Below, piece by piece: positions 2,884 to 8,231 of a DNA stretch of 54,987 bases (positions are counted from its first letter, which is position 1; each line of letters opens with the position of its first letter). This DNA is from an uncultured Clostridia bacterium. Lineage in GTDB: Bacteria > Bacillota > Clostridia > UBA1212 > UBA1255. The stretch covers positions 1 through 54,987 of the forward strand of contig CANQOI010000007.1 of assembly GCA_947625435.1 (NCBI GenBank), written 5' to 3'. The translations under genes and the position numbers were made by a program. The notes under the pieces were generated by a model. It was not told where the DNA came from. It saw only the letters and a program-made list of their open reading frames with translations, and did not search any database.

Positions 2884-4665
2884 TTACTTGCATAGTTCTA
2901 AATACGCGCGTTTTATTATCTGAGCCATAAGTTTTCTTCGTTCTGTAAGAAAGTTCATGTATTCCATTCTTTCAAAATTATCCGGCAGCGCATGTTCGGC
3001 ACATGCTTTCTTGTATTTTTCTTCGCCTAATTTAGTTCGATATTCACCAACATATTCAGCGGGCGATTTATCGGAAATATCAATATTTGTCGCATAATCA
3101 AGATATGTAAAATTTGCAAGTTGATTTCTTTCTCTGTCACTTGTAAATCCTATACCATAAAGGTAATTTTTCGGAAAAATATGGTGCTTATCAATAGCGC
3201 TTTTAGTACCACTGACTCCGAGGACAAAATATTTAGAAATTGGCGTGTTGCTGAACAACATTGTCGTATTCAAAACAATTTGAGAAGCAACATATCCGTT
3301 CCATGTCGGAGATATAGCTGCAGATGAATTCAACTCGTTCGGCAATGTATATTCAAAGTAATCATCAGTAAAACGGGTAGCAATCACATTATCAATATAC
3401 TTAATAAATTCCTGTGCATTGTTCACATTTCTTAAATCTGCAAACTGTTTTTCAACCTCACTTTCTGTTGAACCGGTATAGAAATAAGTAATTGTACTCA
3501 TAAAAAACCATTTACTAATGCATTTTTTTAAACTCATAGAGTCTAAATTGTAATCGTATTTTGCAATCAAATAAAGAACATAATTAAAAACAACCGCGTT
3601 TGAAGAAGCAATAAGCTTGTCGCTGATATATCCTGCTTCTGCTGCTATATTTATAAATGAATGCCAGTTGTTCAAATCCATTACACGCTCAAGCGCTTCC
3701 CTGAATTTAGATAAATTTTCCCTTCTTTTTGCTTCTGAAAACTCACCTGTTTCTAAGTTTTTTCCTCGTAAAAGCATGTATGCATATTTTAATCGAGCCC
3801 TACGGAATCCTACCCCAACCGCCATACGGATTAGGTGAGACGGTTCTACAACAAGTAGATTATTATAAGATGTATTGTTTGCCGGTATGCGTGATTTTTC
3901 CGAAAAGTCGTTAATCATATCGCTTACATCATTTTCATAAACAGAGATAAGCGTCTGAATAAAGTTATGTTCGGTTAAGCTTTGGCCTCCTGAGTTAACA
4001 CGTACAAATATATCAGCGACATCTTCTTCATCGGCGTTATAATTTATCTCTAATGTTGGCAATAAATAAGATGACAAATCGAGTAATGCCTTTATGTTTT
4101 CCTCAACGGCATATTCTTCTTCATCGGATAATTCAGGAAGTCCTTTTTTCTTTCTCCCTTCATTTGCCTCTCTGATATATTGCTTACGTAATGATGGAAT
4201 AGAATGGTTTTCTTCAGCTAAAAACACATCGGAAATTTTTGAAATCCATTCAGGATCACGTTCAAAAGCAGAAGACCACACTGAAAATTCTCTTTTTAAC
4301 GGATTAAAAGAAATTTTGATTTCACGTTCATTAAAATTTTTGTCCTTAATTTTTATGCCATACATTGCAGCAACTAAAGCTGTCAATCGTTGTTGTCCGT
4401 CAATAACAAGATCCTTGGGTTCATCGTAAGTTTTGTCGTTTGCTCCGATACTGGTTTTCTTCGTTTCATAATCAACGGGAGATTCCCAAAGCATAATATA
4501 ACCTATCGGATATCCTTTTATCATCGAATCTAATAGTTCTCTGACTTTATTGTCTTTCCATACAAAGGGGCGTTGAAGATCGGGTAATCCTATTCTCCCT
4601 GACAAGACATTTCGAACAAGTTCACCTACTTTAGTTGGTACGCTTTTAAAAAGTGTTGAATCCAT
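2884..4665 (-). CDS. DUF262/DUF1524 protein, GmrSD-like putative type IV restriction nuclease
   Basis: The 593-aa protein has the GmrS-type DUF262 domain at the N-terminus, with the DGQQRLT motif at residues 89-95 (ParB-like NTPase or nucleotide hydrolysis motif). The C-terminal GmrD/DUF1524 region holds an HNH-like KHHIFPK motif about residues 493-499. Members of this family (GmrSD, BrxU, SspE relatives) cut modified DNA or act in phosphorothioate-linked defence. The target here cannot be read from sequence. The start at 4665 is preceded by GAGGAAAATC. It lies 32 nt after the Fic gene and 36 nt before hsdR, so the three are probably co-transcribed. It is AT-rich compared with the chromosomal part of the window. 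Confidence 0.85.
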   Translation of the reverse strand: MDSTLFKSVPTKVGELVRNVLSGRIGLPDLQRPFVWKDNKVRELLDSMIKGYPIGYIMLWESPVDYETKKTSIGANDKTYDEPKDLVIDGQQRLTALVAAMYGIKIKDKNFNEREIKISFNPLKREFSVWSSAFERDPEWISKISDVFLAEENHSIPSLRKQYIREANEGRKKKGLPELSDEEEYAVEENIKALLDLSSYLLPTLEINYNADEEDVADIFVRVNSGGQSLTEHNFIQTLISVYENDVSDMINDFSEKSRIPANNTSYNNLLVVEPSHLIRMAVGVGFRRARLKYAYMLLRGKNLETGEFSEAKRRENLSKFREALERVMDLNNWHSFINIAAEAGYISDKLIASSNAVVFNYVLYLIAKYDYNLDSMSLKKCISKWFFMSTITYFYTGSTESEVEKQFADLRNVNNAQEFIKYIDNVIATRFTDDYFEYTLPNELNSSAAISPTWNGYVASQIVLNTTMLFSNTPISKYFVLGVSGTKSAIDKHHIFPKNYLYGIGFTSDRERNQLANFTYLDYATNIDISDKSPAEYVGEYRTKLGEEKYKKACAEHALPDNFERMEYMNFLTERRKLMAQIIKRAYLELCK

Positions 4666-4697: not shown

Positions 4698-5600
4698 TTA
4701 TTCCTTAAACGGTATCCTGAAATACTCCAAATACTTCTTGAACTTATCCTGCGCCGCAAGGCATGTGTCGGTAAGGAAACCCTTTTCACGCGGCCATTCC
4801 TTCAATCCACGGTAGTAGAACTGCTTGATGCCGTCCTCGATGATGAACGGTACGATGCCGTGCTTCAGGCACTCTTTAAACAGGATCAGCCTGCCGACCC
4901 GGCCGTTGCCGTCCTGAAACGGATGAATGCGCTCAAATCGCACGTGAAATTCAAGCAGGTCGTCAAGCGTGAAATTGTTTCTTTCGTTGTAATCGGAAAT
5001 AAGACGCTTCATCTCGGCGGGAACATTTTCAGGAAGCGTCGTTTCCGTGCCGCCGACCTCGTTTGGCAGCCTTTTGTAGTCGCCCACAGAAAACCAATCC
5101 TTTTTTGCGTCGCCGGTGCCGTTTTTAAGGATCATATGCAGATTCTTGATCCACTTTTCACTAAGACGCAATTTAACGCTGTCTATGACTTCATCGATAC
5201 ATCTGAAATGATTGGCCGTTTCGATGATATCGTCAACGCGGATGCTCCGGTCTGTGACGCCGACAGTATTCGTTTCAAATATATAGCGGGTCTGGTCATA
5301 TGTGAGGCGGCTCCCCTCAATGTGATTGGAATTGTACGTCAGCTCGATCTGTATTTTATGATAGATGCCGCCCGGTATCCTGCCGTTTTTTTCATCCGTC
5401 AGAGCAGAAAGCAATGTGCGTTCTGCGGCAAGCGCCGTACTTTTATTGCTCCGTTCCGGCTTCTCAGCGTTCTCGGGGATGCTCCACGTTTTACCTGTGA
5501 TAAATGCGCCGGGGATGCGGCCCTGCGCACAGTAATTGCGGACACTGCGTTCGGACATGTTCCAGAGCACTGCAATTTTTTTCACAGATAAATAGTTCAT
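4698..5600 (-). CDS. Fic-domain protein with N-terminal helix-turn-helix
   Basis: Fic enzymes transfer AMP or other nucleotide moieties to protein hydroxyls. The 300-aa product has a MerR/excisionase-like DNA-binding head (about residues 1-45, VKKIAVLWNMSERSVRNY). An inhibitory-helix motif SNHIEG (about 91-96, class II (S/T)xxxE(G/N)) and an intact catalytic loop HPFQDGNGRVGR (226-237) follow. The ATG at 5600 has AGGAAGG 7 nt upstream; an in-frame upstream start at 5660 lacks a ribosome site. Fic genes of this type are frequent inside type I restriction loci. A palindromic operator just upstream (5696-5713) suggests that the HTH head represses its own operon. GC content looks higher than in the two following genes. 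Confidence 0.88.
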   Translation of the reverse strand: MNYLSVKKIAVLWNMSERSVRNYCAQGRIPGAFITGKTWSIPENAEKPERSNKSTALAAERTLLSALTDEKNGRIPGGIYHKIQIELTYNSNHIEGSRLTYDQTRYIFETNTVGVTDRSIRVDDIIETANHFRCIDEVIDSVKLRLSEKWIKNLHMILKNGTGDAKKDWFSVGDYKRLPNEVGGTETTLPENVPAEMKRLISDYNERNNFTLDDLLEFHVRFERIHPFQDGNGRVGRLILFKECLKHGIVPFIIEDGIKQFYYRGLKEWPREKGFLTDTCLAAQDKFKKYLEYFRIPFKE

Positions 5601-5639
5601 ATCGCACCTTCCTCTTGTTCTTTTACCATACCGTGTTAA

Positions 5640-5668
5640 TTTATAGCACATTATCGGCAAAAAATCAA
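5640..5668 (-). promoter_or_regulatory. Sigma-A promoter of the Fic-DUF262-HsdR operon
   Basis: On the minus strand, -35 TTGATT (5668-5663), a 17-nt spacer and -10 TATAAA (5645-5640) put the transcript start near 5634, about 34 nt before the Fic start codon. One arm of an inverted repeat (TTTGCCGATA, 5661-5652) lies in the spacer. A second possible -10 TATAAT lies at 5682-5677. Confidence 0.6.
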
Positions 5669-5713
5669 TTATTGATATTATAATTTATAGCTTTGTTTGC
5701 CGATAGCGGCAAA
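5652..5713. promoter_or_regulatory. Operator-like palindrome and half-site upstream of the Fic operon
   Basis: TTTGCCGATAGCGGCAAA at 5696-5713 is an inverted repeat with 7-bp arms and a 4-bp spacer. A second arm, TATCGGCAAA (5652-5661), is a perfect inverted match to TTTGCCGATA (5696-5705) and sits between the -35 and -10 of the operon promoter. A protein bound at both could block RNA polymerase. The HTH head of the adjacent Fic protein is the obvious candidate; that link is inference. Confidence 0.55.
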
Positions 5714-5827
5714 TAAAGCCTCCCTATTAAATTCAGCAAAAAATTTGCACCTTGTATATTGAAATATAAATGTGACTTCTGCATATAATAATGTTGACGG
5801 TGTATCCGTTCATTTAAATCCGACCTC
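5714..5827. other. AT-rich divergent intergenic region
   Basis: This stretch between the Fic operator and the cptI promoter holds no ORF with a ribosome site. TTGACG near 5794 has no -10 at a usable distance. I see nothing else that I can support. Confidence 0.4.
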
Positions 5828-5856
5828 TTGACAAGTCGGTGATCCTACTGTAGAAT
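5828..5856 (+). promoter_or_regulatory. Strong sigma-A promoter of the cptI antitoxin RNA
   Basis: TTGACA (5828-5833), exactly 17 nt, then TAGAAT (5851-5856). The predicted start near 5863 lies about 18 nt before the first RNA repeat. A near-consensus promoter fits the need for excess antitoxin RNA. Confidence 0.85.
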
Positions 5857-5880
5857 ATATGCGCAGATAGGAATCTATCT

Positions 5881-5982
5881 CAAATGTTTGTTGCTACTCG
5901 ATATGCAACTGAAACAAGATCGAGTTCAAATGTCTGTCGCTACTCGATATGCGACTAACCAAAAGGTCGAGTTCAAATGTTT
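5881..5982 (+). repeat. Two direct repeats of 46/47 nt plus partial third
   Basis: Conserved blocks are CAAATGT, CTACTCGATATGC and TCGAGTT. Differences between the copies fall in the stem-1 arms, where they covary, and in the loop before stem 2 (GAAACAAGA against AACCAAAAGG). Confidence 0.9.
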
Positions 5983-5984
5983 GC

Positions 5985-6016
5985 GGCTCCATTCTGAAAA
6001 GAGTGGAGCCATTTTT
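5985..6016 (+). terminator. Rho-independent terminator between cptI and cptN
   Basis: GGCTCCATTC (5985-5994) pairs with GAGTGGAGCC (6001-6010) through one G-U pair, loop TGAAAA, followed by ATTTTT. In type III systems a leaky terminator at this place sets the high antitoxin-to-toxin ratio. Confidence 0.85.
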
Positions 6017-6030
6017 GTGAGGTAGTTTTA

Positions 6031-6516
6031 ATGTTGATGAATGCCGGACATTTTTATTATATTGACGATCAATATTTCATTGATTTTCCGGATGACAAGC
6101 TTATGCAAAACAAGGAACAAGCAAACGGTCAATTGCATGACCGTCCCTGCTTTTACGCATTTAAGGATAATGATACAGGTCTTTATTGGATGATACCATT
6201 ATCTTCTCAAGTGGAGAAATACCGTAGATATTACAATTTAAAAATCGCGCGTTACGGCAAGTGTGACACCATCACATTCGGTAAAGTGTTGGGATATGAG
6301 AAAGCATTTCTCATTCAAAACATGTGTCCCATTACTGAGAGGTACATAAAGAACGAATACATAGATATCCGTACTTCTATTCCGGTAAGGATTGACGGAA
6401 GGTTTGAGGCTGAACTAATACATAAAGCAAAGCGAGTCTTGCTTTTGCAAAGGAAAGGCATAAATCTTATTTTCCCTGACGTCCTTAAAATCGAAAAAGC
6501 ACTGTTATCCTCATAA
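6031..6516 (+). CDS. cptN: Type III toxin-antitoxin toxin, CptN/ToxN-like endoribonuclease
   Basis: The 161-aa product has the CptN family pattern: PCFYAFKDNDTGLYWMIPLS (about residues 48-67), then RYGKCDTITFG, KAFLIQNMCPIT and NEYID. ToxN-family toxins are sequence-specific endoribonucleases that process their own antitoxin repeats and act in phage abortive infection or maintenance. The assignment comes from my recollection of the family plus the diagnostic upstream architecture of promoter, pseudoknot repeats and terminator. The start at 6031 has GAGG 8 nt upstream, immediately after the terminator. The stop overlaps the last two codons of the convergent GNAT gene by 6 bp. Confidence 0.83.
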   Translation: MLMNAGHFYYIDDQYFIDFPDDKLMQNKEQANGQLHDRPCFYAFKDNDTGLYWMIPLSSQVEKYRRYYNLKIARYGKCDTITFGKVLGYEKAFLIQNMCPITERYIKNEYIDIRTSIPVRIDGRFEAELIHKAKRVLLLQRKGINLIFPDVLKIEKALLSS

Positions 6517-7035
6517 CCTCTTCTCCATATAAACCATATCATAATAATGTCCGAATTTATAACCGCACCTCGTCAGATGCCCGCATTCTGTAAAGCCCAT
6601 TTTTTCGTGAAAATAAATGCTGTCCTTCGTAAGATATCTGTCGTTTTCTTCGGCAGGATAAGCAATGCAGGCATACATATTGCGCGTTCCGATCGTTGCG
6701 AGCCTCATCTCCAGCTCAGTATAGAGCAAACGGCCTATGCCGCGCCCCGCAGAGCCGCTTCTTACATATATGCTCGTCTCGACGCATCCTTCGAACGCCC
6801 TTCTTTCGTGAAATTGTCTCGCGTAGCAGTATCCCACTATCTGTCCGTCACATACCGCGGCCAGATAAGGATACTTTTCCTTCACAGTCCTGATCCTTGT
6901 CCGAAATTCCTCAAGAGAAGGCACATCGTATTCAAACGAGATCGCCGTGTTGATCACGTAAGGCGCATATATGTCGAGCAGCTCCCGGGCGTCCGACAGC
7001 TGAGCGTCCCTTATCACGGTTTCCATGTCATCCAT
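6511..7035 (-). CDS. GNAT N-acetyltransferase, phosphinothricin/MnaT-like
   Basis: This is a GCN5-related acetyl-CoA transferase of about 174 aa. The N-terminal pattern (IRDAQLSDARELLDIYAPYV) and the acetyl-CoA loop VRSGSAGRGIGRLLY match the Pat/YncA subgroup, which acetylates small amines such as phosphinothricin or methionine derivatives. The natural substrate is unknown. The start is uncertain: ATG 7035 has GGGGG only 3 nt away, ATG 7026 has it 12 nt away. It is the last gene of the nfnA operon and overlaps the end of the GH109-like gene by about 20 nt. Confidence 0.85.
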   Translation of the reverse strand: MDDMETVIRDAQLSDARELLDIYAPYVINTAISFEYDVPSLEEFRTRIRTVKEKYPYLAAVCDGQIVGYCYARQFHERRAFEGCVETSIYVRSGSAGRGIGRLLYTELEMRLATIGTRNMYACIAYPAEENDRYLTKDSIYFHEKMGFTECGHLTRCGYKFGHYYDMVYMEKRL

Positions 7036-8231
7036 TTTCCCCCGGTAAAATCGGGCACGGCCACGGGCGCTCCGCCCCTTGCTATAGATTCCTCGCTGAG
7101 AGGACTGATACACATCCACGCCGCCGCGTCATATACGTTTATCGGCGGCTCCGTGGAGCTTCTCACACAGTCAATGAAAGTATTCAGCACGAGCCAGTCC
7201 ATCCCGTCGTGGCCGCCTTTTATATTATTCTTATAGTCTCGCCACATAGGATGCTCGTATTTTTCGGCATATTCATCGGCATTTCCCCACATGTGCCTGC
7301 GGTCGAATTCATATTTGTTGTGTACTCCGTCAATGAAAACGGAATCCGTCTCCTCCGTATACAGTCCCTTCGTTCCGTGCACTGAGAATCCCCTGCTGTA
7401 ATATCTGGGGAGCGTTGTATCGAGCGTAAGAGTGATCGTCTCGCCTCCGGCGCATTTTATGATCGTTGTCACCGCGTCGCCCTGTGCGAACCGTGTATCT
7501 GCAAGAGGCGAACCGGCGCCCTTTTCACGTAAAATGTATTCGTTAAGTCCCTTTGATGATGAGCTCACTGAAGAAAGAGATACAAATCGATTGCCTCTGT
7601 TGATATGCAGTATCTGCGCAATGGGGCCCAGTGCGTGAGTGGGATAATTATCGCAGCAGCGGTGTATGTAATTGCGGAGCCTGTAATGGCGCAGCTCTTC
7701 TCCGTTTGATATTTCATAGCGAAGATCATGCTCATATCCGCCGGTGCAATACATTATATCTCCGAAAACGCCCTCCTCGGCCATGCGCATCACCATCATT
7801 TCACGCCTGCCGTAGCAGCAGTTCTCGAGCATCATACACGGCACGCCCGTCTGCTCGTACGTATCTGTGAGCTTTTTGCATTCATCCAATGAATACGCGC
7901 AGCCCACCTCCATGCCCACATATTTGCCGGCACGCATGGCGTCCGCAGCTATATTTATATGCGACTCCCACGATGACATTATCATAACGGCGTCAAGCTC
8001 ATGCATTGCGAGCATTTCTCTGTGATCGACAGTGCAGAGCGGATCGTTTCCCAGCTCAGAGGAAACAAAACCGGCCGCTTCGCGCGCCCTGTCCTCATAT
8101 GTATCGCACACGGCGGCGATCTCTATGCTGTTTTCCTTCGCCATATCGGCGAGTACTCCCGTAAGTATCGCGCGTCCGCGCTGACCGTAGCCTATTATTC
8201 CGAGCCTTATTTTTCTCTTTTCAGTTCCCAT
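7014..8231 (-). CDS. Gfo/Idh/MocA-fold protein, GH109-like NAD-dependent glycosidase
   Basis: The N-terminal Rossmann fold starts LGIIGYGQRGRAI. The central segment (GMEVGCAYSLDEC, CMMLENCCYGRRE, YPTHALGPIAQI, INRGNRF) follows the GH109 subfamily pattern, not that of sugar dehydrogenases, which carry an EKP motif. GH109 enzymes use tightly bound NAD+ to cleave N-acetylgalactosaminides by an oxidation-elimination cycle. There is no signal peptide, so the protein is probably cytoplasmic. The ATG at 8231 has AAGGA 9 nt upstream; a TTG at 8240 would abut it. It lies 12 nt after the DUF389 gene. The substrate is not certain. Confidence 0.8.
   Translation of the reverse strand: MGTEKRKIRLGIIGYGQRGRAILTGVLADMAKENSIEIAAVCDTYEDRAREAAGFVSSELGNDPLCTVDHREMLAMHELDAVMIMSSWESHINIAADAMRAGKYVGMEVGCAYSLDECKKLTDTYEQTGVPCMMLENCCYGRREMMVMRMAEEGVFGDIMYCTGGYEHDLRYEISNGEELRHYRLRNYIHRCCDNYPTHALGPIAQILHINRGNRFVSLSSVSSSSKGLNEYILREKGAGSPLADTRFAQGDAVTTIIKCAGGETITLTLDTTLPRYYSRGFSVHGTKGLYTEETDSVFIDGVHNKYEFDRRHMWGNADEYAEKYEHPMWRDYKNNIKGGHDGMDWLVLNTFIDCVRSSTEPPINVYDAAAWMCISPLSEESIARGGAPVAVPDFTGGKWMTWKP

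Follow-up and report, generated by a model that had tools for sequence, protein, structure and literature searches.

A CptIN-family toxin-antitoxin locus with two distinct antitoxin repeats in an uncultured Clostridia genome

Results

The locus and its signals

The window is a 54,987-nt stretch of one contig (CANQOI010000007.1) from an uncultured Clostridia bacterium, and we are highly confident that positions 5828-6516 of its plus strand hold a chromosomal type III toxin-antitoxin module of the CptIN family. A promoter is followed there by two repeats, 46 and 47 nt long, then by a terminator and a gene for a 161-aa protein, all of them where a first-pass annotation of the sequence had placed them. 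This order is the type III layout and it recurs in relatives. The annotation had called the locus a complete CptIN-type system with pseudoknot repeats, which is now backed by a sequence profile, a relative of solved structure, the predicted fold, the anatomy of the locus and covariation in relatives.

All features given below lie on the plus strand. The promoter (5828-5856) consists of a -35 element TTGACA (5828-5833), a 17-nt spacer and a -10 element TAGAAT (5851-5856), and agrees with the consensus at 11 of 12 positions. Five promoter-like matches were found where 4.2 were expected, so that one such match alone is not significant; close relatives have similar -35 and -10 elements in the same position. 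Between the antitoxin and the toxin gene lies an intrinsic terminator (5985-6017), in which the arms GGCTCCATTC and GAGTGGAGCC enclose the loop TGAAAA (5985-6010) and form an 11-pair stem that is followed by ATTTTT. An equivalent stem is present in relatives. The locus thus has the single upstream promoter and the Rho-independent terminator, separating the repeats from the toxin, that mark membership. A ribosome binding site, GAGG (6019-6022), was recognized in the sequence 8 nt 5' of the ATG.

The toxin

The gene cptN (6031-6516) encodes a putative endoribonuclease of 161 aa with a MazF/Kid-like fold. It matched the NCBIfam equivalog NF047359, 'type III toxin-antitoxin system CptIN family toxin', at 210.7 bits, well above its threshold of 90 (E = 8.7e-63), and the only significant solved relative in a phmmer search of the PDB was 4RMO, the CptN of Eubacterium rectale (1.2e-23). 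An AlphaFold model, for which the input was 30 aligned relatives after two plasmid-record rows had been left out, reached a mean pLDDT of 91.9. Its best Foldseek match was 4rmo_A (E = 2.0e-11, TM 0.84/0.87, rmsd 2.0 Å), and MazF toxins and AbiQ (4glk, TM 0.65-0.66) were ranked after it.

Ser58, Ser59 and Tyr110 align with Ser51, Ser52 and Tyr104 of the E. rectale protein, and the Ser-Ser pair of the ribonuclease active site and its Tyr, located at the scissile adenine, are therefore present. Arg38 and Lys63 are likewise conserved; the Arg of the published catalytic triad was not identified in the residue comparison with E. rectale CptN. Asp81 and Ser85 of that protein, which contribute to specifying the scissile adenine (PMC4627078), are replaced by Leu87 and Lys91, and the recognition of the cleavage site thus probably differs in detail.

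Pfam and PADLOC gave no match for the toxin, and Rfam gave none over positions 5000-7500 at E values up to 10. The first-pass annotation had proposed to search Rfam for ToxI/CptI and Pfam for ToxN/AbiQ, and both checks came back empty. The missing matches reflect gaps in those two libraries, the current releases of which miss this antitoxin and this toxin. Membership of ToxIN was rejected, as no ToxN/AbiQ hit was obtained in NCBIfam, Pfam, PADLOC or the phmmer search of the PDB.

The pseudoknot repeats

Repeat 1 (5883-5928) is a predicted processed unit of 46 nt, with stem 1 (S1) at 5890-5894/5905-5909, stem 2 (S2) at 5897-5902/5919-5924 and loop 2 (L2) at 5910-5918. The corresponding unit of repeat 2 (5929-5975) has 47 nt, with S1 at 5936-5940/5951-5955, S2 at 5943-5948/5966-5971 and L2 at 5956-5965. 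An independent repeat search returned the 46- and 47-nt spacing and a partial third copy, and these lengths agree with the about 45 nt of CptI. S1 pairs GTTGC with GCAAC in repeat 1, and GTCGC with GCGAC in repeat 2. S2 had been described as unchanged between the repeats, and this is not fully correct: CTCGAT pairs with ATCGAG in repeat 1 but with GTCGAG in repeat 2, which turns one U-A pair into U-G. The 155-nt RNA folded far more stably than its dinucleotide shuffles (z = -4.5, 0 of 200; pseudoknots were left out of the folding).

About 40 relatives were compared, including 29 from genomes, two from viral contigs and further ones from whole-genome searches, and their pseudoknots were located by a descriptor. 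Covariation was measured on 52 repeats (49 distinct) from 28 loci. Standard pairs occupied 98.7% of cells in this set, against at most 37.3% when the partners were slid along the sequence. Both sides had changed at 7 of the 11 pairs, and none of 500 shuffles reached the observed covariation. By this count, the repeats are predicted to form H-type pseudoknots. The annotation had taken the two-sided S1 change between repeat 1 and repeat 2 as direct evidence for selection on RNA structure. The change is real, but as evidence from this locus itself it fails, being one old difference common to 23 of the 28 loci; the evidence for a selected structure is the family-wide pair changes, not this single difference in the window.

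Differences between repeat 1 and repeat 2

In those 23 loci, the middle pair of S1 sets the repeats apart, U-A standing in repeat 1 where repeat 2 has C-G, and in one locus (L023) the remaining S1 pairs differ as well. Among the 23 core loci, the two repeats of one locus lie 8.35 edits apart on average, compared to 4.62 edits between the repeat 1s and 6.14 between the repeat 2s of different loci. No within-locus swap of labels out of 2000 gave groups as tight as those observed. A tree separated repeat 1s from repeat 2s with support of 98/99; the labels change 6 times on it, compared to 18.5 times when shuffled. Carriers of the difference include Lachnospiraceae, Oscillospiraceae and Veillonellaceae. 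Both repeats are of one kind in L012 (the repeat-1 kind), L015, L032 and L036, as would be expected from conversion or re-duplication, and L042 has C-G in both. When these five loci are omitted, 23 are left, and every one of their repeat 1s has A as the fourth base of L2; among the repeat 2s this base is most often U (13), then G (5), C (3) and A (2).

The grouping survived the omission of either the S1 pair or L2 and was lost when both were removed (13 changes vs 15.3). The signal resides in the S1 pair and loop L2, and ancestry and position-specific selection are therefore not fully separable. The two repeats are paralogues of ancient origin, the order of which has been kept across several Bacillota families, and the simplest reading is that two copies persisted under purifying selection without gene conversion. 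A distant locus, L050 (toxin 36% identical), has the same two versions of S1 in the same order, GTTGC/GCAAC and then GTCGC/GCGAC, together with an unrelated stem 2; either ancient retention or convergence may account for this likeness.

Ends of the precursor RNA

A leader hairpin, AGATAG-GAAT-CTATCT (5865-5880), lies upstream of the first predicted cleavage site, with 2 nt between them. It starts about 9 nt past the -10 box and is thus close to the expected 5' end of the transcript. Leader hairpins were counted by a script against shuffles: 34 of 47 relatives have one with 5 or more pairs ahead of the first cut, where 6.6 were expected. The arms vary (AGATAG/CTATCT, GAGTAA/TTACTC, CAGTAA/TTACTG, TAGTAA/TTACTA, GAGCAG/CTGCTT). 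The hairpin may shield the end of the RNA, or it may frame the first cut. In one relative (L029, upstream of position 924), the leader has no short hairpin; there, AAAGTTAAG, about 75 nt farther upstream, can pair with CTTAACTTT ahead of the first repeat, as if an insertion had entered the leader loop.

Directly before the terminator stands the start of a third repeat, AATGTTTGC (5976-5984), which in our reading supplies the 3' half of the last cleavage site. It had been taken as a sign that the array may have lost copies. As nearly all relatives have the partial repeat at the same place, the array normally ends in this way at its 3' border, and a final cleavage site explains the partial repeat better than a lost copy does. 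In the E. rectale system, a 3' AAG was appended to a single repeat to permit processing, and CptI Er carries a cyclic phosphate at A45 (PMC4627078). The cut site UUCA/AAUG (the slash marking the cut) and the processed units were assigned by analogy with this A45.

Distribution and neighbourhood

The source genome has one CptIN locus, the one described here, and a whole-genome search found none in four further genomes from its genus. This absence suggests that the locus was acquired horizontally. An empty-site comparison by way of a neighbouring GNAT gene gave no readable insertion boundary, with the GNAT gene absent from the same four genomes. A tblastn search of phage records gave no match, and a plasmid search returned six distant records.

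On one side, all on the minus strand and running away from the module, are genes for HsdR (73-2868), a GmrSD/DUF262-type protein (2884-4665) and an HTH-Fic protein (4698-5660; PADLOC candidate PDC-S04). The start of the contig adjoins hsdR, and no HsdM or HsdS was seen in the examined part of the window. In the flanks of relatives, one ORF matched Cas12b models (7e-149) and two matched Cas12f/TnpB-like models. An ORF near a contig end in L002 (3742-3945) begins with MGSEMCIRDR, presumably a sequencing-adapter artefact, and is fused to a tyrosine-recombinase-like C-terminus. The toxin gene is broken in L017 (in-frame stop), L020 (frameshift) and L028 and L030 (deletion or truncation, L030 being truncated). 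The repeats are still readable in L017, L020 and L030, as expected if an addiction module loses its toxin first and its antitoxin later; in L028 repeat 1 is degraded too.

Discussion

The locus is ordinary in itself, an intact example of the already known CptIN class whose family membership is established and whose pseudoknots and putative catalytic residues are conserved. It adds a clear CptIN member from an uncultured, gut-type Clostridia genome. Its added value is the long-kept difference between the repeats and the 5' hairpin. We found no description of either in the literature searched, the first classification of type III families lying outside it. That classification is reportedly the work of Blower et al. 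in 2012.

From the E. rectale homologue we infer cleavage, ring assembly, toxicity and retention. Transcription would start beside the 5' hairpin and run through the two repeats. Most transcripts would stop at the terminator, so that antitoxin RNA would exceed toxin mRNA, and read-through would yield CptN. As an endoribonuclease, CptN would cut its own precursor RNA at UUCA/AAUG before, between and after the repeats, and the released pseudoknots of 46 and 47 nt would remain bound across its active site. As in E. rectale, two toxin molecules and two RNAs would probably close into a ring. Once the supply of the short-lived RNA stopped, free toxin would cut cellular RNA and arrest growth, and this arrest on loss of the RNA would stabilize the DNA that bears the locus.

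Alternatively, the selected role of the module may be anti-phage abortive infection, with the shut-off of transcription by a phage depleting the antitoxin and freeing CptN. Type III systems had been described in the annotation as known for phage defence, which is true of ToxIN and, as reported, of TenpIN. However, the E. rectale CptIN did not protect E. coli when more than 200 coliphages were tried (PMC4627078). The HsdR, GmrSD/DUF262-type and Fic proteins on one side look like a defence island, and these neighbours suit that reading and prove nothing; the flanking genes of relatives vary and include no fixed defence partner, in a survey without a baseline. A phage defence role of this locus is possible, and we hold selection for abortive infection to be plausible rather than probable.

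Decay seems very unlikely to us. The partial third repeat and the broken toxins of several relatives might suggest a remnant, with an array shrunken from more copies or with an inactive toxin. Against this, the ORF, its start, the ribosome site, the catalytic serines, the terminator and both pseudoknots are intact, and two repeats plus a partial third are normal in nearly all relatives. The absent Rfam and Pfam hits are all that could be cited for the view that two repeats merely happen to lie next to an unrelated gene. Such a pair would not recur with the same architecture upstream of the same toxin, and with compensatory changes, in about 40 relatives; the pseudoknots located in these relatives and their covariation rule it out, and we give it practically no credence.

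If the module works as a CptIN system, do its two repeats do the same work? Because their identity and order have been kept across several Bacillota families, a ring with one RNA of each kind, or a division of roles, may exist. We propose, tentatively and with more doubt than belief, that in this branch of CptIN the repeats are specialized and not interchangeable. Repeat 1 would be defined by its U-A pair in S1 and a UNAAANAAG-like loop, and repeat 2 by its C-G pair and a loop that is often 1 nt longer. The two RNAs in the ring might then be one of each kind; otherwise, one repeat might act in processing or assembly and the other in inhibition. The 5' hairpin and the terminator would stand in for repeat stems and frame the outermost cleavage sites. 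The comparison with relatives raises the questions of whether long-maintained repeat differences mean a division of labour in type III antitoxins, and whether the conserved 5' hairpin protects the RNA or frames the first cut.

Compared to known systems, ToxIN (ToxN/AbiQ) shares the type III layout and, as the match to AbiQ indicates, the general fold. It has no significant phmmer sequence match with the CptN described here, and is marked by repeats of 34-36 nt, a heterohexamer and phage defence (PMC5086642). The CptIN of E. rectale (Eubacterium/Agathobacter; 4RMO) is alike in family, toxin fold and the positions of the Ser-Ser pair and Tyr. It has two repeats, each an H-type pseudoknot of about 45 nt with a 5-pair S1, a short L1 and an A-rich L2, and a terminator ahead of the toxin gene (PMC4627078). 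It is toxic, is rescued by its own RNA only, for which a single repeat is enough, and fully stabilized a plasmid (PMC4627078).

The differences from E. rectale lie in both partners. The toxins are 34% identical on the structural alignment, Asp81 and Ser85 are not conserved here, and the cut motif is UUCA/AAUG instead of UUGA/AAGU. The two arrays of the E. rectale type in our comparison have repeats that are identical (L046) or one base apart (L035), unlike the non-identical repeats of our locus. The essential kink U30 of CptI Er is the fourth base of L2, and its deletion abolishes antitoxicity (PMC4627078); repeat 1 of our locus has no uridine at this position. The CptIN loci of gut Clostridia (L002-L014, for example in Roseburia faecis and Hungatella hathewayi) have toxins 69-84% identical to ours. 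They have other neighbours, small changes in loops and stems and, in L012, two repeats of the repeat-1 kind, and nearly all of them show the same difference between repeat 1 and repeat 2, the 5' hairpin and the partial third repeat.
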